Below are positions 6,603 through 20,230 of a stretch of DNA of 49,080 nucleotides, piece after piece (position 1 is the stretch's first letter; the number at the start of each line of letters is the position of its first letter). Source of the DNA: Anaerovibrio sp. (GTDB lineage Bacteria; Bacillota; Negativicutes; Selenomonadales; Selenomonadaceae); contig JAQUZO010000003.1 in NCBI GenBank assembly GCA_028691285.1, positions 1 through 49,080 on the forward strand, given 5' to 3'. The position numbers and the translations under genes are program-made. A model generated the notes under the pieces. The model had not been told where the DNA came from, searched no databases, and was given only the letters and a program-made list of their open reading frames with translations.

Positions 6603-7253
6603 TTAACTTAGGAAATATAATATAGGAAAAATAAACAAAAGGCACAGAACCATAAAATTTGGTTCTGTGCCTTTTGGCATATATTGGAATATTTTTATAT
6701 TAACTTTTGCAAGTTCGGATATTTTTTCTATGGACAGTTCAGTAATTTGAGCAATTACAGTATAGTCAAATTTAGCTTTTAGCATTTTGCTGGCAGTTTC
6801 AAGCTTGCCTTTATTATAGCCATCACGTTTTTGCTTTTATAATTCCATTGCTAAAGTCATATAATCACGCCTCCATAAGTATAGATATGTCGATTTTGCT
6901 TGAATAAATCAAAGGTACAGATAAAAATTATATAAGTTTGGTTTAGACTGTCATAGCTGTTGCCTTGTTCCAAAACATCCATATCAATCATAGCCTGATA
7001 ATAGCGAGTACGTTTTTTCAAAACAGCATTTTTATATTAAATATAATGCCTTTCTTATCCTTGACATATACATCAAGACGGACACTTTTGCTATCTAGGC
7101 GAATATCAACAGCTTTTTCTTCTTCGGGATAGCTGACATGGCCAATTTCGATATGGAGAATTTTCTCACCAATCCGCTCATTTTTCATAACTTTTTGGAA
7201 TAAAAAATTATCCTGAATAATAAGTTCTTCCCATAACGTTTAATATGTCCCAT
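6603..7253 (-). pseudogene. Broken Rpn-family PD-(D/E)XK nuclease (recombination-promoting nuclease/putative transposase)
   Basis: Reading the minus strand from ATG at 7253, behind a GGAGGTG site, gives a recognisable Rpn protein in pieces. A frameshift falls after about six codons. The body then reads WEELIIQDNFLFQKVM, HVSYPEEEKAVDIRLD and SVRLDVYVKDKKG with the family's acidic active-site segment. A deletion and frameshift follow FNIKM, after which RTRYYQAMIDMDVLEQG and FICTFDLF appear in other frames. An in-frame stop interrupts MTLAMEL-KQKRDGYNKGK. The last 60 codons (6603-6785) remain open. Rpn proteins are DNA endonucleases that stimulate RecA-independent recombination. The multiple lesions show this copy is dead. 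Confidence 0.85.
6637..6675. terminator. Bidirectional rho-independent terminator after the flagellar operon
   Basis: A perfect 16-base inverted repeat (6637-6652 and 6660-6675, arm AAAAGGCACAGAACCA) with a 7-base loop, A-rich on one side and T-rich on the other. It can end both the flagellar transcript from the left and the minus-strand Rpn relic from the right. Confidence 0.8.
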
Positions 7254-7605
7254 GTGACCACCTCCGTTAATTCAATTATAAAGCAAAAATTGCCAAAAAA
7301 TCGCTCTAAAAGCCAACAAAAATTTCGCTGTGTAAAAATATTCGGACAAAAGTCTTGCTGGGGGGGGACAACTTTGATAGAATGAAAGACATAAGAAAAA
7401 AATAGGTACAGTAAATATGGCTCAATCACCAATTCCACAAAGTTTGTGATTGAGCCAATAAAATTCCGGCATTTTGTGGGGTCAAAAATTAAGGTATACT
7501 TTCCAAAAGGTACTATACTTCAGCAAGAGTGCAACTGTGTGTTGAAGCGATAGACTGTTATTGGGATGCAATATACTATTTTTTATAAATTAGGGGGGGA
7601 GTTAT
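7254..7605. other. 352-base intergenic region upstream of the island
   Basis: No gene is seen. The stretch is AT-rich, with a run of eight G at 7360-7367. It holds a possible promoter (7355-7383), a 12-base inverted repeat (7418-7429 and 7446-7457, arm TGGCTCAATCAC) with a 16-base loop and no proper T tract, and two near-repeats AAGGTATACTT and AAGGTACTATACTT around 7491-7515. A third TATACT lies near 7572. This is probably the leader and control region of the gene starting at 7606. Confidence 0.5.
7355..7383 (+). promoter_or_regulatory. Possible promoter for the island operon
   Basis: TTGCTG (7355-7360) and TAGAAT (7378-7383) are separated by 17 bases, a fair sigma-A-type match. If used, it gives a leader of about 215 bases containing the inverted repeat at 7418-7457. 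The -35 is weak, so this is tentative. Confidence 0.35.
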
Positions 7606-8904
7606 TTGAAAAAAATAGTGGGAATAGCAATTTTGTTAGTGATGACATTGGTGGCTGCAGGATGCTTTTTTGACAAGGAGGAAAGTTTAGGGGAACTTCC
7701 ATACTTGCCTTACGCAGCAATGCCTGATACTGAACAGAACAAGTCGGTAGGAGTAGATGTGTATTGGGATGCTACTTGTTCTATGCAGGGATATACCACT
7801 ATTCAGCAACAAAATACCTATCAGAGGTTGCCTGATAATCTGGAAGATATAGGCATATCTATGGGGGAGATTCACTTCTTCAGGTTTGGCGAGGAAATCC
7901 AGCCGTTGGAAGGACGAGAGCATCGTCAGTTTATGACACCAGAATATTACACAGAACTGATTACACCGATTCACAAGGTGGTGGAGCAGGCAGACGGCAA
8001 ACATCTGAGTGTGGTGGTCAGTGACTTGTTTGAAAGCGATGCAGATTGGAGCAATGTAGCCAAGCAAATAAAAAGCAAATACTTTGAGAATCATCAGAGT
8101 GTAGCCGTTATTGGTGTCAAGAATCCATTCAAAGGAGATATCTTTGATGTTGGCTATAGTGCTGGCGGCAAGTTCTTCTATGATAGTGGCACTGATGCAG
8201 CGAAATACCGGCCTTTTTACATGTTGGTGATGGGACCAACCGACGATGTGCGCTCGTTTGTAGCCAAGTGCAAAGAACGCATTGGGACAGGCGCTAATGT
8301 GAAATATCTGTTATTCAGTGAGGAACTGGTGGAGAAAGTACCAGATTTAAATACAATAGATTATAGCAACAGTGAAAATATATTCATGGACAGCAAGTTG
8401 CAAGTTCCCGATAAGCGTATGGTAGAGTTTGGTGTAAATGATAAATCCGCAACAGTGAAGCTGGAAACTGCTATCAATTATAAACCTTTTGCAGATGTAT
8501 GCCAGATTGATACCAACTCGTTGCAACCTGTTATCAAGGTAAGCAAGTTAGAGAATGGTGAATGGGTAGAGGAGACAGATGTTTCTGCGATAAGAACATC
8601 ATTAGAAGAAAAAACAGATAGTGACAATACATTTGTTTATAATATGGAATTTCAGCCTAACGAAGTGTTGAATGCAGATTCTGTGACACTGCTACAGACA
8701 TTTATTGTACCAGGCCGTGATGGCTTGCACTTGCCAGCCTGGGTGCAGGAATGGAATATGGATAATCAGGCTAGTTTTGATGCAGGCCAGTTTGATGGCT
8801 CAAAGACAATCAACCTGGTCAGCCTTATGTCATCATTAAAGGATTCTTCGACAACCATCAAGTATCCATCTATTGCTAATATTTTTATGGTAATAAAAAA
8901 TTAA
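7606..8904 (+). CDS. Lipoprotein with a von Willebrand A-like domain (island gene 1)
   Basis: A 432-residue exported lipoprotein. A TTG start at 7606 follows a strong AGGGGGGGA site. The signal peptide ends in the lipobox LVAAGC, with the lipidated Cys at residue 20. The next domain resembles a von Willebrand A fold: strand VGVDVYWDATCSM gives a MIDAS-like D55-x-T57-x-S59 metal site, and VVVSDLFE around D140 fits the later MIDAS aspartate. The C-terminal part (about 270-432) looks beta-rich and is unassigned. vWA domains bind partners through a metal ion, so this may be the outward-facing sensor or adaptor of the system. It is 16 bases before the next gene. Confidence 0.8.
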   Translation: MKKIVGIAILLVMTLVAAGCFFDKEESLGELPYLPYAAMPDTEQNKSVGVDVYWDATCSMQGYTTIQQQNTYQRLPDNLEDIGISMGEIHFFRFGEEIQPLEGREHRQFMTPEYYTELITPIHKVVEQADGKHLSVVVSDLFESDADWSNVAKQIKSKYFENHQSVAVIGVKNPFKGDIFDVGYSAGGKFFYDSGTDAAKYRPFYMLVMGPTDDVRSFVAKCKERIGTGANVKYLLFSEELVEKVPDLNTIDYSNSENIFMDSKLQVPDKRMVEFGVNDKSATVKLETAINYKPFADVCQIDTNSLQPVIKVSKLENGEWVEETDVSAIRTSLEEKTDSDNTFVYNMEFQPNEVLNADSVTLLQTFIVPGRDGLHLPAWVQEWNMDNQASFDAGQFDGSKTINLVSLMSSLKDSSTTIKYPSIANIFMVIKN

Positions 8905-8920
8905 AGGGAGGGCTCAGAAA

Positions 8921-9406
8921 ATGAATCGCAGTGTGAAAACAGCTATCCAAATAGGCGGTATAATAGGGGTTATTTTTGTGTGTGCCGCTATTATGTATTT
9001 TGGCCTGGCAGACAGTTTGGGAAAAACATATATTACTGGTACAAAAACCAAGATTATTGATTGGACATCACACTACAAAAATATGCTTATAATAGTGATG
9101 CTGATTTCGATGTTTACCAGCTTGTTGTGGTATGTCCTGTCCAGGTTTGTGTTCAAAATTACCAGTTGCTTCGGTGTGGGCAAAAGGGCAATTTGGCTGG
9201 TAATATGTGTTGTTAATGTTATTGGTGTATTGTTGGCAACGGCTTTGTGCAGCAATGATACTACGCTGAAAGTAGGATTCTCATTATATATAATACATGT
9301 TATTTTGTTTAGCGTTGTGGGGTATTATCTGACATCAGTTTTGTTTACACCGGCAGCTTATAAATACACGCCTGTAGGTGCCAATCTGATTAAGCTGAAG
9401 AAATAA
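8921..9406 (+). CDS. Four-helix integral membrane protein (island gene 2)
   Basis: A 161-residue protein with four predicted membrane helices (about residues 8-28, 50-70, 86-108 and 113-136) and a short basic tail ending in KLKK, which should be cytoplasmic by the positive-inside rule. I recognise no family. An AAAGGGAGGG site precedes the ATG. It is tightly packed between the vWA-like lipoprotein and the tubulin-like gene (16-base gaps on both sides), so it may be a membrane anchor linking the outer lipoprotein to the cytoplasmic filament-type proteins. That role is inference. Confidence 0.75.
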   Translation: MNRSVKTAIQIGGIIGVIFVCAAIMYFGLADSLGKTYITGTKTKIIDWTSHYKNMLIIVMLISMFTSLLWYVLSRFVFKITSCFGVGKRAIWLVICVVNVIGVLLATALCSNDTTLKVGFSLYIIHVILFSVVGYYLTSVLFTPAAYKYTPVGANLIKLKK

Positions 9407-9422
9407 GAGAGGGGCGAATTTC

Positions 9423-10919
9423 ATGAGCTATTATTTTGTTGCTATAGGCGGCTCCGGCGCCAAGGTACTGGAATCCTTGACGCATCTGAGTGCAGCAGGT
9501 GCTTTTCCAGATGAGGAAAAATTGTATGTTATGAACATTGATCCGGATGTTGGCAATGGTAATTTGGCACGCAGCACCAAGTCATTGGAATGCTATGAAG
9601 TGTTTCAGAATGCTACTATAGGCTATGCCTCACCTTTATTCCGTACCAAGGTGGTTTTAGCCAGGCCTTTTACCTGGAATCCAACTGAGCATAACAAATG
9701 CCTGGATGATGTAATGAGTTATCAGGCCTATAAAGAAGAACCAGTAGGGCATCTGTATCGTGCGTTATATACAAAAAAAGAGCGCACAACTTTGCTTAAT
9801 GAAGGCTTTCGCGGTCATCCTTCTATCGGTTCTGCTGTTATGGCCAAAAAGATTGATTTGGGTAATGGTGATTATACTGTAGATGGTGAAACTTGGAGTT
9901 GGTTGAAAAATCGTGTTAACGAGGATGTTAAGACTGGCAGTGTGGCGCGCATATTCCTGACCGGTTCTATTTTTGGTGGTACAGGTGCAGCTGGTTTGCC
10001 AACAGTAGCAAAGGTTTTGCGTCGCACATTTGATTCTTTCTGTGAGAGCAAAAAGGTTGTTATTGGTGCTGGTATGGTATTGCCGTATTTCTCATTTTCA
10101 GCGCCAGCAAAAAACGAGGTTAAGGGGCAGGTATATGCAGAAGCAGAGAATTTTTTGACAAATACCAAGGCGGCCTTGAGGTATTATTCGGGAGCAATTA
10201 AAGAAGAACGGCTTTTTGATTCCATGTACTTTACAGGTGATTCTTCCCTGGATCAGATAAATAAGTTCAGTGTAGGTTCTTCCAGCCAGGAGAATGATGC
10301 ACATGTAGTGGATTTTTATGTGGCCTTGGCCGCTATAGATTTTTATCAGACGCCAGTAGACAAATTGAAAAATTGTTCTTATATATCTCACAACAAACCA
10401 GATGCCTTTGAATGGGGAGATTTTCCCGAACTGGCAGATATGACAACGCAGTCCTCACCAAATCTCAAAACGCGTATGGGACAATATATTCGTTTTGTTT
10501 TTTCGTACTTACTGTTGGTAAAGCCAGTGTTAAAAGAACTTAGTGCAGGCAATATACCAGCTTATAAATATCCATGGTTTGCGGATTATCTGGAAAAGGT
10601 GAACGCAGATTCTCCAGAAGTACAGCGTTTTGAGCAGTATGTAGAGGATTTTGTGCGGTGGCTGGCCCAGATGACTAACAATACATCTCGTCGTCAGATG
10701 TCAATTATTAATCATGATATTATCAGGGGCATTAATCCGTCTGTTTTGGATGGAAATATAATGGATCGTCTGATTATTGGTGGTGATGAGGGGAACATTT
10801 CTCTCCACGAGGTATGGATCAGACTGTGTGAAGAACAGAAAGCTGCAGATACTACAAGGGATGCCCAGGGGTTCGGCAAGTTCCTGCGGCTGCTTTATGA
10901 TAGCTGTGAAGCCAGATAA
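9423..10919 (+). CDS. Tubulin/FtsZ-superfamily protein (tubulin-like domain, island gene 3)
   Basis: A 498-residue cytoplasmic protein with the tubulin-fold landmarks. A first nucleotide loop AIGGSGAKVLESL lies near residues 7-19, a ribose-contact-like segment VMNIDPDVGN near residues 37-46, and the phosphate-binding signature GSIFGGTGAAG at residues 181-191, a variant of the GGGTG(S/T)G motif. It is longer than FtsZ (about 350-400 residues) and lacks the FtsZ C-terminal peptide. It most resembles the bacterial tubulin_2/FtsZ-like groups. GTP binding is expected; polymerisation is unproven. It is followed 30 bases later by an actin/Hsp70-fold ATPase. ATG 9423 follows GAGAGGGGCG. Confidence 0.85.
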   Translation: MSYYFVAIGGSGAKVLESLTHLSAAGAFPDEEKLYVMNIDPDVGNGNLARSTKSLECYEVFQNATIGYASPLFRTKVVLARPFTWNPTEHNKCLDDVMSYQAYKEEPVGHLYRALYTKKERTTLLNEGFRGHPSIGSAVMAKKIDLGNGDYTVDGETWSWLKNRVNEDVKTGSVARIFLTGSIFGGTGAAGLPTVAKVLRRTFDSFCESKKVVIGAGMVLPYFSFSAPAKNEVKGQVYAEAENFLTNTKAALRYYSGAIKEERLFDSMYFTGDSSLDQINKFSVGSSSQENDAHVVDFYVALAAIDFYQTPVDKLKNCSYISHNKPDAFEWGDFPELADMTTQSSPNLKTRMGQYIRFVFSYLLLVKPVLKELSAGNIPAYKYPWFADYLEKVNADSPEVQRFEQYVEDFVRWLAQMTNNTSRRQMSIINHDIIRGINPSVLDGNIMDRLIIGGDEGNISLHEVWIRLCEEQKAADTTRDAQGFGKFLRLLYDSCEAR

Positions 10920-10949
10920 AAGGTATGTGTATTGTATAGGAGGATGACC

Positions 10950-13900
10950 ATGGCAGATTTATATCCTTTATTGCCAAAATTAAAAATTGATTCAGCTGTT
11001 ACTCCTTCCAAGGCTAGCAGTTGGACAGATGAAACGTCTGATTTTTTGGTACAACTGATTAAAAGTCTGGCTGTACCTGATGATACGCCGGAGTACGAGT
11101 CTATTGATTCGATTCCTGATGTGTGGGCCAGACCATTGTTGTTTGCAATGGCTCTGTTTGACAAACAGACTGAGACAGAGCAACAGTTTGGCAGCACCTT
11201 ATTTAAGCGTGTGCAAGGCGAGTGGCGTTGCCTTTTGGCCATGTTAGCACTGAATCAGGTAAAAAATCTGAATTTGCGAGCAGAACAGGTGATTTTGCGT
11301 AACGAAGCAACCAGCAGTCTGGAAAGCATTTTGGCAAAAATGGCACCTGGCAAAGATGGCCTGATTAGTGATGATACAGATTGGAAAAACCTGTATATTA
11401 TCTTTTTTCAGGATATTCCTATTGGTATTACTTCGCCAAGCAGCCTTTTGGCAGCATCAGCAGATTATATGAGTGATTTTGATGGTACCTTGCCTTCACC
11501 TTGGAGCACAGATGGTTATTATATGGAGGATCCTATTCCATATTTGACCAATGATGATTTGACATCCCTGCATGGCTGGCTAAAAAGTCTCAGTGAAAAT
11601 CTGAAGCAACGTGTTGCTAATCAGGACGATAACAATGAGTTCCTGATGGTGCGTCAGCGCTTGGAGGAGTACTGTGACGATATCCAGAAACGATTGGGAC
11701 GCCGGGTGGAAATGGCGAAAAATGTAGCCAAACCTGGGACGTTGAAGCTGAATATTGGTATTTTTCATTTGTTAGATACTGTAATACCTGCCAAAGAAGC
11801 AGCTGCAGAGGATTCGCAGGTACGACTGCTTCCTTCTGCTGGTCGTAATCCACAGGGGAATATCCTGTTGGTATCGCCAATGTCTTTGCAGGAGATGGCT
11901 GATGGCTGGGGAATTCCAAAAACACAGTTGGTAATTTGGGCTGGTATTACAGCTAATGATGTATCAGAAACATGGCTTACAGAAGATAAAGGCAAGCTGG
12001 GTGATGTGTTATTGAAGAATGCACAATATCGTCGTCCTGAGGAATTCTTTACAGAGAAGCTGACACTGGTGGAGCCAGCTAATTCTATTCCAGGGGCAAT
12101 GAATATTCGTGGTTCTGAGATGATTGCCAATGATGAGAATTGTAGTGTGTTTATTCCTTTGAAGCAGGAAATTCTAGAATATCTTACAGCAGCAGAAATC
12201 ATGGAACGCATGTGGATTGAGCGCAATAATGATGCTATATGTGTGCATTTTAACTTCCCTGTTTCCGGAGTTGGTGGGCAGAAAGACTATGAGTTCGTCA
12301 AGCAGTACAAAGAATCTGACATCATTTATGTAATGAAGTCCATGCCTGATATTGAAATATGGCCTGATTTCAAGCGTGATGACTGGCATAAATATTATTT
12401 TTATTATGGTAATGCTGATTCTGACAGCAGCACCAAAGAAGCAGGAAAGGACTTTTTCTATGCGACCCCATGGAGCTATGGCATAGAAAATGGCAATGAT
12501 GTGCCAGACTGTGGATTGGCTAATCAATATACAGCCTGCATTAGCGCTTTCCCTGAGGTGCTGATGTGTTATGTAAATTCCTCAGCCAAGGGCAGCACCC
12601 GTAGTATGGTAGAGGATGGCGGCATGATTGTTCTGCAGCCACCACAGACAATAGATGTCAATAATATGTCCAAATGGGATGTCAGCGTGGATTTTGGTAC
12701 ATCAAGTACTATGGTTTATTACAAGGACAAGCAGAGTGAGCCAGCCAAACTGCCATTTACACCGCATTTGTTCCAGGTAACAGACTCTGGTGTATTGAGG
12801 AACAATCTGTATTACAATTTCATGCCAGAGAATATCATGAACCCTGATGGCTCTTTCTTGACGATTTTCCACATTCTTAATACCAAGGTGCAGAATGCGG
12901 ACTTGCGGACATTGCAGGATGGCCATATTTTCCCATTGGAGATGGACGAATCCAAAGTAAATCGTTTTGTGGCCAATGAGGACACTATTGAAGCCAATCT
13001 GAAATGGCAGGGGGATGTTGCTGGTACAGATAGCAGCAGACGCAAGGCAAAATCCTATTTGGAGCAGATTTGCCTTCAGAGTGCAGCAGAGGCGGCTGGC
13101 AAAGGCATTGCAGAAATGAAGTGGCATTTCTCTTATCCATCAGCTTTCTCAGTAGAGGGGCAAGACTCTTTTGAGGCTACCTGCCGTCGAGCTGGCAGTG
13201 ACGCTTGCAAGGGAACCAGCTTTGCTATAGGCAGCAATGCTTTTGATACTCAGTTGGAGAGTGTGGCTACAGCGCTGTACTTTAACAAGTTGGGCAATAG
13301 TGACACGAACTTTGGTGATGGTGCTATCTGTCTGGATATTGGTGCAGGCACTACAGATATTTCTATTATCAGTGGCAGACCAGGACGAATTGTTTTCAAC
13401 ACATCTATTCGTTTTGCAGGCAGATATCTCTTTAAGCCAATTTATGATTATGACTATGAAACTATCAGTGGCAGGCAGTTGGAATTAGGGACATTGAATC
13501 GTGATCAGCGGAATACTGTAATTGATGCCGATATGCGCGCCAATAGTGAAGCCTACCTGAATAATTTGATTAATATTACTGGTGCAGATACGGTTAAAGA
13601 AATTTTGCAGGATTGCCAATTTGCTATGTCAGGTATTATGCACTATGTAGGCATGTTGTTGAAGAAACTACATGACGAGGGTATCTATCAGGAGAATCAT
13701 GTGCCAGATATCTATGTAGGCGGCAATGGATCGCGTATCTTCCAGTGGTTGGTTGGCGGCAGTGGATTTAGTACAGATAGTGTGCGGATGAATGTATTGA
13801 AGAAGGTACTGCAGGCATCTGCCGGTTTTGGCGATGACTATAGTTTCACTATTAGTCTTAGCGACAAGCCCAAAATTGAGGTAGCCAGCGGTATGATTAC

Positions 13901-14303
13901 CGAACGGCCACGACATAATCTGCGAGCTGAGGAGGAGACGAATCTTAAGCTCTTTGGCGATACAGAGGACGAATATCTGTTGAGTTCAGTACTGACAGGT
14001 GAAGGATTTGAGGTTGCTGGTCAGGCCAAGGAAAAAGATGCGTTTATTTCAGCTCGCGATATTGCAGCTGGTGTTGACATAGTTGATTTGCCTGAATTCG
14101 ATGCGTTTGTGGAGCAATTTAATAAGCAAAAACGCAGCATCTGGTTTAATGGTGTCAAGTATACAGAACAGGAGCAGAATGATTTGAAGAAGGCTGTACT
14201 CAGTTACTATGTAGCTGAGAAGGGTAAGGATGTCAAGGAAATCTATGTTGAACCTGTGTATATTACAGCCTTGAAAAAAATGATGGAGATGATGAGAAAA
14301 TGA
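10950..14303 (+). CDS. Large protein with actin/Hsp70-type ATPase domain (island gene 4)
   Basis: A 1117-residue protein. ATG 10950 is chosen because AGGAGG lies at 10938-10943; the frame extends upstream to a TTG at 10932 that has no ribosome site. Residues 1-570 match nothing I recognise. The C-terminal half has the actin/Hsp70/MreB fold motifs in the correct order: phosphate 1 DFGTSST at about residue 581, phosphate 2 DIGAGTTDISI at about 796, and the adenosine motif GGNGSR at about 924. No signal peptide or membrane helix is seen. It could be a filament-forming actin-like protein or a chaperone-like ATPase acting on the neighbouring tubulin-like protein. The large SrfB group is a possible distant relative. 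The stop overlaps the next start (ATGA). Confidence 0.85.
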   Translation: MADLYPLLPKLKIDSAVTPSKASSWTDETSDFLVQLIKSLAVPDDTPEYESIDSIPDVWARPLLFAMALFDKQTETEQQFGSTLFKRVQGEWRCLLAMLALNQVKNLNLRAEQVILRNEATSSLESILAKMAPGKDGLISDDTDWKNLYIIFFQDIPIGITSPSSLLAASADYMSDFDGTLPSPWSTDGYYMEDPIPYLTNDDLTSLHGWLKSLSENLKQRVANQDDNNEFLMVRQRLEEYCDDIQKRLGRRVEMAKNVAKPGTLKLNIGIFHLLDTVIPAKEAAAEDSQVRLLPSAGRNPQGNILLVSPMSLQEMADGWGIPKTQLVIWAGITANDVSETWLTEDKGKLGDVLLKNAQYRRPEEFFTEKLTLVEPANSIPGAMNIRGSEMIANDENCSVFIPLKQEILEYLTAAEIMERMWIERNNDAICVHFNFPVSGVGGQKDYEFVKQYKESDIIYVMKSMPDIEIWPDFKRDDWHKYYFYYGNADSDSSTKEAGKDFFYATPWSYGIENGNDVPDCGLANQYTACISAFPEVLMCYVNSSAKGSTRSMVEDGGMIVLQPPQTIDVNNMSKWDVSVDFGTSSTMVYYKDKQSEPAKLPFTPHLFQVTDSGVLRNNLYYNFMPENIMNPDGSFLTIFHILNTKVQNADLRTLQDGHIFPLEMDESKVNRFVANEDTIEANLKWQGDVAGTDSSRRKAKSYLEQICLQSAAEAAGKGIAEMKWHFSYPSAFSVEGQDSFEATCRRAGSDACKGTSFAIGSNAFDTQLESVATALYFNKLGNSDTNFGDGAICLDIGAGTTDISIISGRPGRIVFNTSIRFAGRYLFKPIYDYDYETISGRQLELGTLNRDQRNTVIDADMRANSEAYLNNLINITGADTVKEILQDCQFAMSGIMHYVGMLLKKLHDEGIYQENHVPDIYVGGNGSRIFQWLVGGSGFSTDSVRMNVLKKVLQASAGFGDDYSFTISLSDKPKIEVASGMITERPRHNLRAEEETNLKLFGDTEDEYLLSSVLTGEGFEVAGQAKEKDAFISARDIAAGVDIVDLPEFDAFVEQFNKQKRSIWFNGVKYTEQEQNDLKKAVLSYYVAEKGKDVKEIYVEPVYITALKKMMEMMRK

Positions 14304-15337
14304 AAAACATAAAATCTCTAAAAGGGTTAGCAGTTGCTTTTGCTCTGGCAGGTATTGTGTTTATCGGGGGACAGCATGTATATGCTGAACCAAGCGGAGA
14401 AGCTCAAGATATAACTTCAGGGCAAAAGTATTCAGACACAGAGTCTGATATTATAAGTTTGACACAAAGGATAGAAAATTTAGAGAAAACGGTACCGAGT
14501 ATTGGAACACAACCGGAGCCTAAAGCAAATGCTGGTGGTTCAGTGCAGACGGACTACCTTGATATGGCTGTCAAGTATGTCGCCTTATTGTCAGGGTTGA
14601 TGGCCTTGTTATTGTCCTTGTTTGCGCTCTACAACTGCGGTAATGTGAATAAAAAATTGATATTAAAAGATAAGCAACTGAAAAAGGAGCTTGACACGTT
14701 GAAGAGCCAGCAGGAGCAACTGCAGGAGCAACTGCAGGAGCAACTTAAGGGGGCTCAAGGAGAGTCCGTGGCTCTGCGGGCAGATTATAATGTATTGCAG
14801 GAACAGCACAATAGGATGCAGTTATCTGCAACAGCTGTCAGAGCTGGGAATATTCCGGTTCGTAAGATGCCGCCAGCACCTCCATCAATAAATGAATTGA
14901 TACAGGCAAGATTTAGAAAACTGTCTGATAGTTACAAAGAACTGATGCATTTGTGGACAACAGATCAAGGGGCATTTCGTAGCAAGCGCAGAGAGTTTAC
15001 GGAGCGGGAGCATCCACAGGAATTTTGTTGCAGCAATGCAAAGGAGCGGGCTGTCAATGGCAACTTGGATCCAGTTTATGTCAATGCTGCAGCTGGTACA
15101 GGCACATTTTGGGCTGTGCCTATAGAAGAAATTCCAGGAAAATACTTTGTATTTCCTAGTCCGACATTGGCTTATGAGAAACAACAGCATTGGACTGGCG
15201 GCATGAAGGAAGCTTTCAAATCAAATTATCAGGATGGTATGTTTTGTAGTAATTTTGAGGTTATTCGTCCAGCTGTTTTCATCAAACAAGGTGATTCTTG
15301 GAATTTAGTAACAGCTGGTGATTTATCACTACATTAA
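14300..15337 (+). CDS. Signal-anchored coiled-coil membrane protein (island gene 5)
   Basis: A 345-residue protein overlapping the previous stop by four bases, so translation is probably coupled. It has a cleavable signal peptide (cleavage near VYA-EP, residue 30), a short exported segment with a small helix (IENLEKTV), a membrane helix at residues 93-112, and then a basic stretch, which places the rest in the cytoplasm. A coiled coil follows (about 115-175) and contains three copies of QEQL encoded by a 12-base tandem repeat. The C-terminal domain (about 205-345) has FWAVP, YFVFPSPTL and PAVFIKQGDSWNLV, looks beta-rich and is unassigned. A hairpin terminator lies just downstream. Confidence 0.75.
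   Translation: MKNIKSLKGLAVAFALAGIVFIGGQHVYAEPSGEAQDITSGQKYSDTESDIISLTQRIENLEKTVPSIGTQPEPKANAGGSVQTDYLDMAVKYVALLSGLMALLLSLFALYNCGNVNKKLILKDKQLKKELDTLKSQQEQLQEQLQEQLKGAQGESVALRADYNVLQEQHNRMQLSATAVRAGNIPVRKMPPAPPSINELIQARFRKLSDSYKELMHLWTTDQGAFRSKRREFTEREHPQEFCCSNAKERAVNGNLDPVYVNAAAGTGTFWAVPIEEIPGKYFVFPSPTLAYEKQQHWTGGMKEAFKSNYQDGMFCSNFEVIRPAVFIKQGDSWNLVTAGDLSLH
14711..14746 (+). repeat. Three tandem 12-base repeats in the coiled coil of island gene 5
   Basis: CAGGAGCAACTG occurs at 14711-14722 and 14723-14734, and CAGGAGCAACTT at 14735-14746. Each unit encodes four residues (QEQL), so unit gain or loss keeps the frame and lengthens or shortens the coiled coil. Confidence 0.9.
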
Positions 15338-15400: not shown

Positions 15401-16135
15401 ATGACAGAAGAAAGATTGGCAGTGGCGCAGCTGCTGCAAAAGATTATAGCCGAGGATAAGAATGTTCTGGTGAATTATGAAGAATTGTTAGCCAAGCTGC
15501 AGGAGGGTGGTGTGAGCGGTGGCGACTATCGTGCTATCAATAATGCATTACAATATAAAATTGGGGCAGTATTAAATAGTGTGGAGCCGGATAGCGCAGA
15601 TGCCATTGCCCAAGGTCGTAAGGACTTGCAAAAAGTATTGCAGGCAAATAATATGCTGGCTGCCAGAATAGAGTTTATCGTTGATATTTTTACGTATGCT
15701 GTAGGCTGGCAGGAGGCAGAAGTCGGATTAAACAATGGAACAGCACAGACGGTGCATGAATCCGTATCGGCAGAGGTGAAGGTTACTTCTGAGCGGAAGA
15801 CAGATAGCTTAGTTGCTCCGTCAACTGATATAGAAATATATGCCGAAGATGATAAGACAACAGTTGATTCTAATGTGTGGATTTGTCCAACATGTGGTGA
15901 AGAAAACGATTTGTTTTTTTGTGAGAACTGCGGATGTGCCAAGCCAGAACCTCAGAAAAATAATATTGAAATAGAGTCATGGGCTTGCCTGCAATGCGGC
16001 AGGCAAAATACAGGCAAGTTCTGTATAGCCTGTGGTGCGCCACAGCTGCAGCAAGATGTTAATACATGGGTGTGTACAAATTGTGGCCGCGAAAATACGG
16101 GGAAATTCTGTACAGGTTGTGGCAATCAGAGATAA
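15401..16135 (+). CDS. Protein with a new N-terminal domain and three zinc ribbons (island gene 6)
   Basis: A 244-residue soluble protein. ATG 15401 is chosen because AGGGGG lies at 15391-15396; an in-frame ATG at 15368 falls inside the terminator hairpin. Residues 1-105 form a helical domain (VAQLLQKIIAEDKNVL, KIGAVLNSVEPDSADAI, RIEFIVDIFTYAVGW) shared with the next gene. A linker leads to three tandem zinc ribbons beginning near residues 160, 192 and 222, each of the form W-x-C-x2-C-G-x2-N, then F-C-x2-C-G. This suggests a binding hub recruiting other components; nucleic acid binding is also possible. It ends 22 bases before the next gene. Confidence 0.8.
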   Translation: MTEERLAVAQLLQKIIAEDKNVLVNYEELLAKLQEGGVSGGDYRAINNALQYKIGAVLNSVEPDSADAIAQGRKDLQKVLQANNMLAARIEFIVDIFTYAVGWQEAEVGLNNGTAQTVHESVSAEVKVTSERKTDSLVAPSTDIEIYAEDDKTTVDSNVWICPTCGEENDLFFCENCGCAKPEPQKNNIEIESWACLQCGRQNTGKFCIACGAPQLQQDVNTWVCTNCGRENTGKFCTGCGNQR

Positions 16136-16157: not shown

Positions 16158-17294
16158 ATGGGTAAGGATGATATTCAACAGACAGGGGAAATATTAAGAA
16201 AGCTGCTCCAGGAAGATGAAAATCTATTGCTGGACCAGGCAAGTTTTAGTGACAAATTAGCCAAGGCAGGAATTGTATCTAGAGATAATAGTATTCTGGA
16301 CAAAGCCCTCAGCTTGGGAATTAATGCTATATTGATGTCTGTGGATCAGGAATCATTAGAGTCCGTAAAAGCTGGTCAGGCAAAGTTGAGAGAAATACTC
16401 TTAAATGAAAACATTAATATGAGAAGGGTTGATTTTGTTGTTGATGTGTTTACAGTTGCATTTGACTGGGTAACGCCAGAAAATATAGCTCGCAAGGAAA
16501 AGGAAGCCAAGGAAAAGGCTGCAGCAGAGAAAGCCAGGCAGCAACGAGCAGAAGAACAGGCACAGCAACAGGCACAACGCAAAGAGGCGGAAGCTAGACG
16601 ATTGGCTGTCCAAAAGGAAGAGCTTGACAGACGAGCCGCGCAGCAGGCAGCAGTTCAGCAGGCAACTGTTGAGCCTGTGATACAACAACCTGTTAAGCAG
16701 TCTACGGGGGGAGCAGAAAACCAGCCGCCGACGAAAGTTCTAGCATACGTTATAGGTCTTATTTTGATTGCTGTATGCTGCATTTTCCTAGTAAAACCTG
16801 CTACAGAAAATCAAGGTCAGGTTAATGGCTCAAGTAAAACCAAGGTAACTACAGAGAAAGAGGTATCAGAGAAGAATAATGACAATGGTGGATCCAATAG
16901 GAGGGTAGCTAGTGATAATAAAAGTAATACAGAGGGAATCAAGGCTCCAGTAAAATCATCTGAAGGAGAAATTGCTTCTGCAGCAGGAGCAGTACTAGTG
17001 AACTATCATAAAAATATTACCAAGAGCAACTATCGCACAGCATATAATTGCACCAGTGACGGGTGGCAAGGCAGGGTTGGCTATGAAGGATGGGCAAAGG
17101 GCTTTAAAACTACAATTAGCAGTGAGGTAAGCAATATCCAATATGATTCAGTATCAGATGATAGAGTCGTAGTGCGATATGTGCTGACGGCAGTGGATAA
17201 TCCTGGCGGAACCAGACGATTTAACGGCAAGGCTGTTATTATCAAGACATCTGAAGGCTGGAAGATCGATAACATGGAACATGAGGCGAGATAA
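16158..17294 (+). CDS. Membrane protein with the shared N-terminal domain, coiled coil and NTF2-like end (island gene 7)
   Basis: A 378-residue protein. ATG 16158 follows GGGGTGGGGAG. Residues 1-105 repeat the domain of the previous protein (GEILRKLLQEDENLLL, GINAILMSVDQESLESV, RVDFVVDVFTVAFDW). An Ala/Glu/Gln/Lys-rich coiled coil (about 110-175) leads to a membrane helix (about 194-215). A Ser/Asn/Lys-rich linker is then followed by an outer domain of about 110 residues (VLVNYHKNITKSNYRTAYNC to VIIKTSEGWKIDNM) with an NTF2-like/DUF4878-like pattern. The N terminus is therefore cytoplasmic and the C terminus external. It may join the cytoplasmic hub to the envelope. Confidence 0.8.
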   Translation: MGKDDIQQTGEILRKLLQEDENLLLDQASFSDKLAKAGIVSRDNSILDKALSLGINAILMSVDQESLESVKAGQAKLREILLNENINMRRVDFVVDVFTVAFDWVTPENIARKEKEAKEKAAAEKARQQRAEEQAQQQAQRKEAEARRLAVQKEELDRRAAQQAAVQQATVEPVIQQPVKQSTGGAENQPPTKVLAYVIGLILIAVCCIFLVKPATENQGQVNGSSKTKVTTEKEVSEKNNDNGGSNRRVASDNKSNTEGIKAPVKSSEGEIASAAGAVLVNYHKNITKSNYRTAYNCTSDGWQGRVGYEGWAKGFKTTISSEVSNIQYDSVSDDRVVVRYVLTAVDNPGGTRRFNGKAVIIKTSEGWKIDNMEHEAR

Positions 17295-17308: not shown

Positions 17309-17728
17309 ATGGATGTGAAATTTTGTCCAAATTGCGGCAAACAGCTAGGAGAGAATACTTCTTTTTGTGGAGAATGCGGCCACCAGATTGCAGTCAATGC
17401 AGTGCAGACAATTCCTGAACCTGTGGTAACAGTTCAGGATATTCCAGCACAGAGTACGTCTGCTCCGTATCAGGAAATAGATCATATGGTTAGTGGAGAG
17501 ACTGTGTTGGTGAGTCCTGGCAAGGTTGTTAACAAAACAGTTTATATTTTACTTGCATTGTTTTTAGGCGGTTTTGGAGCACATAAATTTTATACTGGAC
17601 GCATAGGTCTGGGTATCTTGTATTTGGTCTTTTTCTGGACATGGATTCCTGGTATCATTGCCGCTATTGAAGCAATTTATGTAGGTATAAAGAAGAACTC
17701 GGATGCCTACGGCAATATTACTATGTAA
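17309..17728 (+). CDS. Zinc-ribbon TM2-domain protein (island gene 8)
   Basis: A 139-residue protein with an N-terminal zinc ribbon (KFCPNCGKQLGENTSFCGECG, four cysteines in two CxxC pairs), a Pro/Thr/Val-rich linker, and a C-terminal TM2 domain of two membrane helices (from about residue 72). The TM2 hallmarks GGFGAHKFYTGR and LGILYLVFFW are present. TM2 proteins are widespread; their biochemical role is not settled. The repeated use of zinc ribbons in this cluster suggests a shared docking principle. ATG 17309 follows CGGAGGG; the gap to the next gene is 19 bases. Confidence 0.85.
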   Translation: MDVKFCPNCGKQLGENTSFCGECGHQIAVNAVQTIPEPVVTVQDIPAQSTSAPYQEIDHMVSGETVLVSPGKVVNKTVYILLALFLGGFGAHKFYTGRIGLGILYLVFFWTWIPGIIAAIEAIYVGIKKNSDAYGNITM

Positions 17729-17747: not shown

Positions 17748-18941
17748 ATGAAGGGGAGTCAAGCTGGGAGTGGCAAAAAAATTAGGCGGCATTTTTGTAA
17801 AGCATTGGTTTTGGCAGTGTGTGTCTGCATGGGGGTTGGCATCAGCTGCATTTCAGGTTGCTCAGGGCAAAATGTAGTTAAACAGGAAACTGCCGCAGAA
17901 ATTGCGACACATGAAGATTTATCTACAGAAGCCAAGGTAGATAAAATTTTGGCGCAGATGTCAACTGCAGAAAAAGTCGGACAGATGGTGATGATTGGGG
18001 TTCATGGAACCAGTATTAATGACGACATGGCATATATGCTAAGTGAATATGATATTGGCGGAGTGATTTTGTTTGATCGTAATCTGGAGACGCAGAATCA
18101 GGTTATTGAGTTAAATCGACAGTTACAGGCACATGCGCATGGAATTTTGCCCCTATTTATTGCTATTGATGAGGAAGGTGGACGAGTATCAAGAATGAAA
18201 GATGTGCTGACACCGCCACCATCACAACAGGCTATAGGTGTTACAGATGAGCCGGAACAGGCACGGCTATGGGCAGTTAAGACAGCCAATGAGTTAAAAA
18301 AATATGGGTTTAATGTGAACTTTGCACCAGTAGCAGATGTAGGCTCTGATTCCGCGCAAAGAATGTATAGCAATTATCCTGATAAGGTGACACGTTTTGT
18401 CAGTGCAGCGGTTAAGGGATATGAGTCAGAAAAAATGTTGTGCAGTTTAAAACATTTTCCAGGAATTGGCAGAGGGGAAACAGACTCACATAATGGTTTT
18501 GTAAATGTTTCCGCTAGTGCAGATGCAATGGAAAAGGTTGATCTGGAACCATTCAGATTTATGATTGCTAATGCCGATCAGGATAATTTCTGGGTAATGG
18601 TAACCCATGTGACTTATTCGGCCTTTGACGACAAGAATCCAGCATCTTTTTCATCGGCAATTATGACAGATTTGCTGAGAAACAAATTAAAGTATCAAGG
18701 AATTGTCATAACTGATGATTTGGATATGGGAGCAATTGCTAATTACTATAATTATAATGAAGTAGGCGTAAAATCTATTATGGCTGGTTCAGATATAGTA
18801 TTGGTGTGTCATGATTATGCTCATGAGACCTCGGTATATAATGGCATATTGAGGGCGGTAGAGGCAGGAACCATTAGCCAGGAACGCTTGGATGCATCTG
18901 TCAGAAGGATTATTAAAGCAAAATTACTGCATATTATGTGA
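17748..18941 (+). CDS. Glycoside hydrolase family 3 lipoprotein, probable beta-N-acetylhexosaminidase (island gene 9)
   Basis: A 397-residue exported lipoprotein with lipobox ISGC (Cys 38) after a long hydrophobic signal. The rest is a GH3 TIM barrel of the NagZ type: MSTAEKVGQM, GGVILFDRN, IAIDEEGGRVSR, FAPVADV, KHFPG at 235-239, then the Asp-His dyad in ETDSH (D246, H248), and ITDDLDMGAI at about 321-330 carrying the catalytic aspartate. The family removes N-acetylglucosamine from muropeptides or related glycans. All key motifs are present, so it should be active. Lipid anchoring puts it at the outer face of a membrane. It lies 14 bases before the next start region and is probably co-transcribed. 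Confidence 0.88.
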   Translation: MKGSQAGSGKKIRRHFCKALVLAVCVCMGVGISCISGCSGQNVVKQETAAEIATHEDLSTEAKVDKILAQMSTAEKVGQMVMIGVHGTSINDDMAYMLSEYDIGGVILFDRNLETQNQVIELNRQLQAHAHGILPLFIAIDEEGGRVSRMKDVLTPPPSQQAIGVTDEPEQARLWAVKTANELKKYGFNVNFAPVADVGSDSAQRMYSNYPDKVTRFVSAAVKGYESEKMLCSLKHFPGIGRGETDSHNGFVNVSASADAMEKVDLEPFRFMIANADQDNFWVMVTHVTYSAFDDKNPASFSSAIMTDLLRNKLKYQGIVITDDLDMGAIANYYNYNEVGVKSIMAGSDIVLVCHDYAHETSVYNGILRAVEAGTISQERLDASVRRIIKAKLLHIM

Positions 18942-18958
18942 AGGGGAAGTGAAATGTG

Positions 18959-20230
18959 ATGAGTTGGGATTGTCCAAATTGTGGGCGTACAGGCAATTTG
19001 AAGAAATTTTGTGGTCAATGTGGTTGTAAGAGACCTGAGGCAGAGGTTATGCCTGAAATAGTGCAACCAGTACTTGAACCGGAAGTTTCTGCAAACGAAT
19101 CATCAATACCAGATATTCCTGCACCTGATACGGCATCAGCAGTGCAGCCGGTATCTACTGCGCCTGTTGCAAATAATAATACAGGCGGCAATAACTGGCA
19201 GGGTAAGTTGCCAGGTGGAGCTATAGAGGGCAAAAAGAAGCCGGTGATTATTGCAGTTTGTGCTTTGTTGGTGGTATGTTTGGGATTTTTTGCCTTCAAA
19301 ATGCTTGGCGGAAACGATTATGCGAGCAAGGGACAGGAATTTATCAGTATTTCTCAAGATGTCAGCAAAACTGCAGCAGAACTGAAAAAATTGCCAGGTA
19401 CACCATCAGAGTCTGAGCGTAAATCAGTTAGTGATGGCCTGCAAAAAAGTATTGATAAATTGGACAAGTTGGATCAGGATTTGAAAAAAATAAAATCAAA
19501 TAAGCAAGATGAAGCTGCAAAATTCCAAGGCCTGCTCGCATTGGTTGAATTTGATAAGGAATATTTGACAGTGGTGCGGGACATTGTAAATTATGCACCT
19601 CAGGAATTGGGTAATATGAATAGATATATTCCAGAGGAATATAAGGCACTGCATAAGAAATATGCCGATCAAGCGCGTGCCTATGAGCAGCTGGAAACTT
19701 TGTCCATTATTATTGATGACAGCAAAGCTAACAAACAAAACGTACAGGCATTATCTTATGTGTTGTGGGATGAAGTTGACGGTGCGCTTAGTGAGTATCT
19801 GCAACGCAAAGTACAGCGTGACAGCCAATATTTGTCAGATATAATCAAGGAAGCAAATAGCAAGCAAGCCGAAAATAATGCTGAATTAAAAAAGAAGGAT
19901 GAAGTTGTATTTTTGGTAAATAAAGTATATCCCATGGGCAAGGCTATTTGTGTGGAAGGCATGTTCTATAATGGCACTAAGGATTTGGTATCACATATCA
20001 AAGAGTATTTATTAGATATAAGCCTTAAGTGTTATGGCAAGGAAGTATTCTCTGTTAAGGATGCGAAAGGGTCAGCCTATCATGAAGTTTTTAATTTACC
20101 ACCAGGCGGCAGTGCTGCATCTACTATCATGTATCATTTAGGAACGAACGATAATATACCATATTACACTACAGCGGAAGTTAATATGCATAAAATCCGC
20201 TGGGTAGTTAGAAGAGAGGTCAAACGCTAA
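18959..20230 (+). CDS. Zinc-ribbon membrane protein with external helical and beta domains (island gene 10)
   Basis: A 423-residue protein starting at ATG 18959 (a GTG three bases upstream is also possible) after AAGGGGAAG. It has an N-terminal zinc ribbon (WDCPNCGRTG then FCGQCG), a Pro/Ser/Ala-rich linker, and a membrane helix at about 95-116. Outside lie a long helical region with coiled-coil character (about 125-310) and a C-terminal beta-rich domain of about 110 residues (VYPMGKAICVEGMFYNGT, VFNLPPGGSAAST), perhaps an FxLYD-like or immunoglobulin-like sandwich. The layout is parallel to island gene 7: a cytoplasmic docking module, one helix and an outer domain. Function unknown. Confidence 0.78.
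   Translation: MSWDCPNCGRTGNLKKFCGQCGCKRPEAEVMPEIVQPVLEPEVSANESSIPDIPAPDTASAVQPVSTAPVANNNTGGNNWQGKLPGGAIEGKKKPVIIAVCALLVVCLGFFAFKMLGGNDYASKGQEFISISQDVSKTAAELKKLPGTPSESERKSVSDGLQKSIDKLDKLDQDLKKIKSNKQDEAAKFQGLLALVEFDKEYLTVVRDIVNYAPQELGNMNRYIPEEYKALHKKYADQARAYEQLETLSIIIDDSKANKQNVQALSYVLWDEVDGALSEYLQRKVQRDSQYLSDIIKEANSKQAENNAELKKKDEVVFLVNKVYPMGKAICVEGMFYNGTKDLVSHIKEYLLDISLKCYGKEVFSVKDAKGSAYHEVFNLPPGGSAASTIMYHLGTNDNIPYYTTAEVNMHKIRWVVRREVKR

Follow-up and report, generated by a model that had tools for sequence, protein, structure and literature searches.

The window, a 49,080-nucleotide stretch of contig JAQUZO010000003.1 from Anaerovibrio sp. (family Selenomonadaceae), encodes a tubulin-fold protein and an actin/Hsp70-fold protein, here called TUB and ACT, side by side within a cluster of plus-strand genes:

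7606–8904, plus strand: vWA-like lipoprotein, 432 amino acids, with a signal peptide, the lipobox LVAAGC, a MIDAS-like DATCSM motif (residues 55–60) and an SDL/TDL motif (139–141)
8921–9406, plus strand: small membrane protein (TM protein), 161 amino acids, with four predicted TM helices and a conserved C-terminal KYxPxGA tail
9423–10919, plus strand: TUB, tubulin/FtsZ-fold protein of the Tubulin_2 (FtsZl1) superfamily, 498 amino acids
10950–14303, plus strand: ACT, actin/Hsp70-fold protein, 1117 amino acids, with an N-terminal region of ~570 residues and a C-terminal domain from residue 574 to about 1100
14300–15337, plus strand: CC, membrane-anchored coiled-coil protein, its start codon overlapping the ACT stop codon
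15368–16135, plus strand: accessory zinc-ribbon protein, with homologues downstream of ACT in related genera
16158–17294, plus strand: accessory single-TM protein, its N-terminal region resembling the preceding zinc-ribbon protein
17309–17728, plus strand: accessory zinc-ribbon and TM2-domain membrane protein (Pfam TM2, 5e-16), with relatives in the clusters of other genera
17748–18941, plus strand: GH3 beta-N-acetylhexosaminidase (NagZ-like) lipoprotein (Pfam GH3, 4.8e-78; NCBIfam PRK05337, above cut-off)
18956–20230, plus strand: accessory zinc-ribbon single-TM protein

The ACT open reading frame spans 10932–14303 on the plus strand, with the ATG at 10950, which has AGGAGG ahead of it, as the preferred start. 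Both reading frames of the pair are real, and the 30-base spacing given in the first-pass annotation is exact (10920–10949). For the single-TM accessory gene, the ATG at 16158 is preferred; with the GTG listed at 16032 as its start, it would overlap the gene before it.

The motif-based vWA assignment of the lipoprotein rests on the MIDAS-like DxTxS and TDL motifs, conserved in a 24-member alignment (A6), whereas the Pfam VWA model is matched by only one of the 24 members. Its gene lies upstream of TUB in most loci across seven phyla. The NagZ-like lipoprotein probably acts on cell-wall sugars; its gene is kept in the clusters of G140, G007 and G138 and also adjoins the unlinked ACT gene of G040. 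The cluster is flanked on one side by a chemotaxis/flagellar set (CheW, CheC, a sigma factor and FapA) and on the other by housekeeping genes leading to translation genes. Between FapA and the module, at 6760–7560, inspection by eye revealed degraded minus-strand fragments resembling remnants of PD-(D/E)XK/Rpn-type transposases, which possibly mark an insertion site.

Folds and nucleotide-binding motifs of TUB and ACT

The first-pass annotation had pointed to GSIFGGTGAAG in the first protein and to DFGTSST, DIGAGTTD and GGNGSR in the second. We located these motifs at TUB residues 181–191 and at ACT residues 581–587, 796–803 and 924–929, respectively. Family profiles and structure predictions of each protein agree with its assignment of two different folds, tubulin-like and actin/Hsp70-like, and the refuting outcome it had named for the models, absence of the tubulin or the actin fold, did not occur.

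TUB of the window matches Tubulin_2 (PF13809) with an E-value of 5e-4 at 19.8 bits, below the curated cut-off of 27 bits, and Tubulin (PF00091) with an E-value of 1e-3, also under the curated cut-off. PF13809 is matched by all 36 TUB relatives at E≤0.01, and its cut-off is exceeded by TUB orthologues in 17 of 300 genomes. No solved structure was found to match TUB by sequence. Its AlphaFold model (pLDDT 84.5, pTM 0.90) superposes on FtsZ (6ll6; Z 17.3, rmsd 2.9, 188 residues), CetZ1 (4b46; Z 16.8) and tubulin (8t42_B; Z 16.4), and all three matches span residues 1 to about 350. The GTP-binding motifs T1 (GGxG) and T4 (SxFGGTGA) are kept in 36 of 36 sequences, and T187 in 35 of them. The T7 loop of FtsZ, NxDxxD, has no recognisable conserved copy in the same sequence alignment, so GTP hydrolysis and polymerisation by TUB are uncertain. 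A conserved WxDxP at residues 331–335 is a candidate counterpart; hhalign gave no alignment between TUB and the FtsZ of relatives, and T7 is therefore not mappable by profile.

The long coiled coil and helical C-terminal domain of FtsZl1-type proteins (about 1000 residues) are absent from TUB, at 498 residues, and from its relatives, at about 466–600. We asked whether the TUB C-terminus, GFGxFLRxLYDxC, mimics the FtsA-binding peptide at the C-terminus of FtsZ. The FLR part is limited to Selenomonadaceae, whereas a G...LY helix is more general, which leaves this C-terminus as no more than a candidate docking element. The FtsZ model TIGR00065 has no match on the window contig (C69), and its matches in the same genome lie on contigs C91 and C129, in agreement with the earlier placement of the pair outside the division cluster. 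Besides the contig-end FtsZ on C91, there is a second, divergent FtsZ in the host genome (C129:23354–24304), a feature shared by most genomes of its genus.

ACT of the window matches MreB_Mbl at 3.8e-7, above the family cut-off, and 27 of 33 ACT relatives match the same family. Pfam HSP70 has no match in ACT; of the FtsA models, TIGR01174 has no match on the window contig and PF14450 reaches only E 0.08 (13.7 against 31.8 bits). The AlphaFold model of ACT (pLDDT 85.2, pTM 0.75) is matched from about residue 574 on by DnaK (7kru_B; Z 19.8, rmsd 4.1, 329 residues), MreB (4cze; Z 19.6, 3.9, 287) and FtsA (7q6i; Z 19.1, 3.2, 259). These three are ties, and BiP is also among the best matches; a chaperone role is therefore equally compatible with the fold. 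The ATPase motifs of actin and Hsp70, namely phosphate-1 (D581-F-G), phosphate-2 (D796xG798 with D803) and adenosine (G924-G925), are kept in 33 of 33 sequences, with D581, E770, D796, D803, G924 and G925 invariant. The C-terminal domain of ACT shares its ATPase fold and motif order with DnaK/Hsp70 and MreB, but identity is only about 12–20% and the N-terminal region differs by sequence.

At two loci, L132 (9869–13352) and L136 (9914–13178), ACT is split into two open reading frames, corresponding roughly to the N-terminal part and the actin-fold part, through either natural fission or an assembly frameshift. A second ACT-like gene accompanies the module at L159 (2283–6341, a Rhodospirillales MAG) and at L187 (19981–21231, a viral-collection contig).

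Conservation, co-occurrence and fusions of the gene pair

A scan of genome contigs with the ACT alignment identified 75 named loci, in Selenomonadaceae, Phascolarctobacterium, Acidobacteriota, Cyanobacteriota, KSB1, Ignavibacteriota, Bacteroidota and Alphaproteobacteria, whereas the same scan with a single ACT sequence found nothing. The gene set occurs in at least seven phyla (Bacillota, Cyanobacteriota, Acidobacteriota, Bacteroidota, Ignavibacteriota, KSB1 and Alphaproteobacteria), and outside a Quinella-like clade its order is vWA-like lipoprotein, four-TM protein, TUB and ACT, with local variations. The first-pass annotation had called such a pairing uncommon. It was right that the pair stands outside the division cluster, but the description was too modest, as the unit is conserved across seven or more phyla and is no rare accident.

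TUB is present in 30 of 151 genomes of the host family, and none of the 30 lacks ACT, including those that have the pair on separate contigs. Of 300 genomes of the class, taken in a single draw, 21 had TUB and 22 had ACT, with both in 21. One family predominates in the genome set and the family counts are not independent, so the gene order shared across phyla is the stronger argument. In the Quinella-like genus (g13) TUB and ACT usually lie on different contigs and still co-occur; tight co-transcription is therefore not required. Among the other listed genomes of the host genus only G119 has the module, which makes it an accessory trait.

To avoid the circularity of anchoring on ACT, we added TUB-anchored scans of plasmid and viral collections. 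ACT adjoins TUB in all five loci of the viral collection and is present in six of six TUB records of the plasmid collection, adjacent in the three inspected (Gloeothece, Picosynechococcus and Prevotella). The viral-collection modules (L185–L189) lie on IMG/VR contigs classed as viral and could be either genuine viral cargo or the flanks of proviruses; phage records contained no ACT homologue. The cyanobacterial modules L195 and L196 are plasmid-borne, in Gloeothece PCC 7822 and in Picosynechococcus strains, a location that suggests mobility. In Picosynechococcus PCC 73109 the lipoprotein, TM, TUB and ACT genes run from AWQ23_RS15335 to RS15320.

The distance matrices of TUB and ACT correlate with r = 0.945 across 32 loci (0.941 without Selenomonadaceae), the best of the pairs tested; correlations with the other partners are lower, at 0.87 for the vWA protein and 0.67–0.72 for the TM protein. 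The main clades of the TUB and ACT trees agree. Judged by these sequence comparisons, the TUB–ACT pair is an ancient conserved unit and no local accident.

In one genome, G306, the TM protein is joined to ACT: residues 1–155 match the TM family (A7 model, E 8e-36) and residues 169–942 match ACT (A5 model) from position 340, the N-terminal 340 residues being gone. The fusion would place the actin-fold protein at the membrane, and it is from this one genome that we infer membrane attachment of ACT. In the Quinella-like clade, the C-terminal domain of CC is joined to the end of ACT. G306 has no TUB of the family; an FtsZ-like gene (PF00091, 3e-9; L075:10558–11727, minus strand) adjoins the module, and the canonical FtsZ of this genome lies elsewhere. 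We considered this gene as part of the operon and as a replacement tubulin. The 41-base gap, however, holds a terminator-like hairpin, leaving the gene adjacent and not clearly co-transcribed, and the replacement role is weak, with a single case separated by a hairpin. Because of this hairpin, the joint absence of the family TUB and of the first 340 residues of ACT offers only a hint that this N-terminal part belongs with TUB.

Further genes accompany ACT at some loci. MotA/ZorA-like and OmpA/ZorB-like genes lie downstream of it in five (Bacillota, Acidobacteriota and KSB1). In Paludibacter (Bacteroidota) a canonical Hsp70 (PF00012, 4e-78; L157:13513–15048) directly follows ACT, and a homologue of this gene lies near ACT in Ignavibacteria (L160_7).

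Relation to described systems and a proposed envelope machine

A link between Tubulin_2/FtsZl1 proteins and vWA proteins was already drawn by Makarova and Koonin (2010, PMC2875224). According to the main text of that study, their neighbours comprise a vWA protein, membrane proteins and sometimes OmpA-type proteins, and a role in membrane remodelling apart from cell division was proposed; most FtsZl1 proteins are long, combine a coiled coil with a helical C-terminal domain, and often have kinases and a P-loop GTPase nearby. TUB belongs to the same Pfam superfamily and has a vWA-like gene next door (with weak Pfam support). It differs in being about 500 residues long without the coiled coil, in an operon without a P-loop GTPase, and in its partner, an actin/Hsp70-fold protein that appears to be obligate. 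No actin-like or Hsp70 neighbour is named in the main text of the 2010 study, whose anonymous neighbour families A1–A2/B1–B9 could include ACT.

As described by Kaur et al. 2020 (PMC7159879), the GAP1-N2 DO-GTPase conflict systems have tubulin or HSP70 components. They share with the present module tubulin-domain proteins, an extracellular vWA, HSP70s and membrane proximity, but there the HSP70 is canonical and the tubulin and HSP70 themes do not overlap. A search for a TRAFAC double GTPase found no Walker A motif in the cluster proteins of the window, nor, a few isolated pattern hits aside, in the proteins of the core operon at 25 loci. The five loci with ZorA-like (MotA) and ZorB-like (OmpA) genes downstream of ACT recall Zorya; ZorAB is, however, not in the window, TUB and ACT are no Zorya parts, and no other Zorya gene (ZorC/D or ZorE) was identified at the five loci. 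No description of the TUB–ACT pair was found in the literature searched, largely openly readable main texts.

Like FtsA and FtsZ of the divisome, ACT and TUB are an actin-fold and tubulin-fold pair encoded by adjacent genes, and would act at the membrane. Unlike them, neither is a member of the respective family by model, the host genome has its own FtsZ elsewhere, and ACT carries 570 residues of N-terminal region and, in place of an FtsA-type amphipathic tail, apparently uses a TM partner. The analogy drawn by the first-pass annotation, in which the actin-fold protein anchors or regulates the tubulin-fold protein, gains from the TM::ACT fusion, known from one genome, and loses from the family results and from an ACT fold equally close to Hsp70 and FtsA. 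Overall, that interpretation is partly supported.

TUB and ACT are encoded next to each other, together with a membrane protein and a surface lipoprotein, across seven or more phyla, and the four probably form one unrecognised cell-envelope machine, which works beside ordinary division and not in it. We propose, with a probability of about 0.5, that 7606–14303 is the core of an envelope module in which membrane-tethered ACT organises or regulates TUB in an FtsA-like manner for envelope remodelling. The surface lipoprotein, with its vWA-like motifs, would sense or bind something outside the membrane, and the four-TM protein would carry the signal and anchor ACT. ACT, a putative ATPase, could then recruit or regulate TUB, a putative tubulin-fold GTPase at the inner membrane face, through its N-terminal region and ATP state. 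Such an arrangement would resemble FtsA with FtsZ, having evolved separately, and it would probably serve to remodel membrane and cell wall locally, with the NagZ-like lipoprotein (here) and a ZorAB/MotAB-like motor pair (in some relatives) as possible accessory parts. We infer direct TUB–ACT contact, filaments, ATP and GTP turnover, the direction of signalling and the remodelling output. A bolder version, which we regard as possible but tentative, is a widespread, division-independent two-filament machine of the envelope, with TUB as GTPase and ACT as ATPase being obligate partners, driven or gated by the lipoprotein and in some lineages coupled to a ZorAB-like proton-driven motor.

ACT might instead be an Hsp70-like chaperone or regulator in an envelope-stress or anti-invader (conflict) system, in which the lipoprotein senses, ACT sets a threshold with ATP and TUB assembles as the response, compare the proposal in PMC7159879. 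DnaK and BiP are among the best fold matches of ACT, and a true Hsp70 or its homologue accompanies ACT in Paludibacter and Ignavibacteria; yet in PMC7159879 tubulin and HSP70 remain non-overlapping themes, with tubulins fused to coiled coils. ZorA/ZorB-like genes at some loci resemble Zorya defence parts, but PADLOC gave no match for the lipoprotein, TUB, ACT or CC of the window. The patchy distribution (21 of 300 class genomes; G119 alone among other host-genus genomes) and the presence on plasmids and five viral-collection contigs would suit a conflict system, whose P-loop GTPase/GAP1-type gene is nevertheless absent from the core of 25 loci and in which no variable effector domain was recognised. 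We regard this as the main rival and as less likely than the FtsA-like model.

Less probable still, TUB and ACT could belong to one envelope complex without touching and serve separate steps, for example positioning by TUB and anchoring of CC and the TM protein by ACT. Such a division of labour would fit the fusion partners that ACT has of its own, the TM protein and CC, and the fact that TUB can be encoded far from ACT. It accords poorly with the almost constant co-occurrence of the two, with a distance correlation that is the best of the tested pairs, and with G306, which has no TUB, an adjoining FtsZ-like gene and an ACT without its N-terminal 340 residues. That the two are chance or operon-hitchhiking neighbours in this genome, for which nothing speaks beyond the single window, is refuted by the comparative data, in which the gene order is shared by seven phyla and co-occurrence is almost perfect.

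Since 2010, what the Tubulin_2/FtsZl1 branch does has been an open question. The present analysis contributes a short Tubulin_2 subfamily that has a constant actin-fold partner and, as a natural fusion indicates, a membrane tether, and cultured hosts (e.g. Picosynechococcus PCC 73109, Arthrospira PCC 9108 and Gloeothece PCC 7822) make the question testable. A two-filament apparatus, if true, would be of a kind not described before. If TUB and ACT work together, the pairing of tubulin and actin folds at a bacterial membrane would occur at least once outside division.
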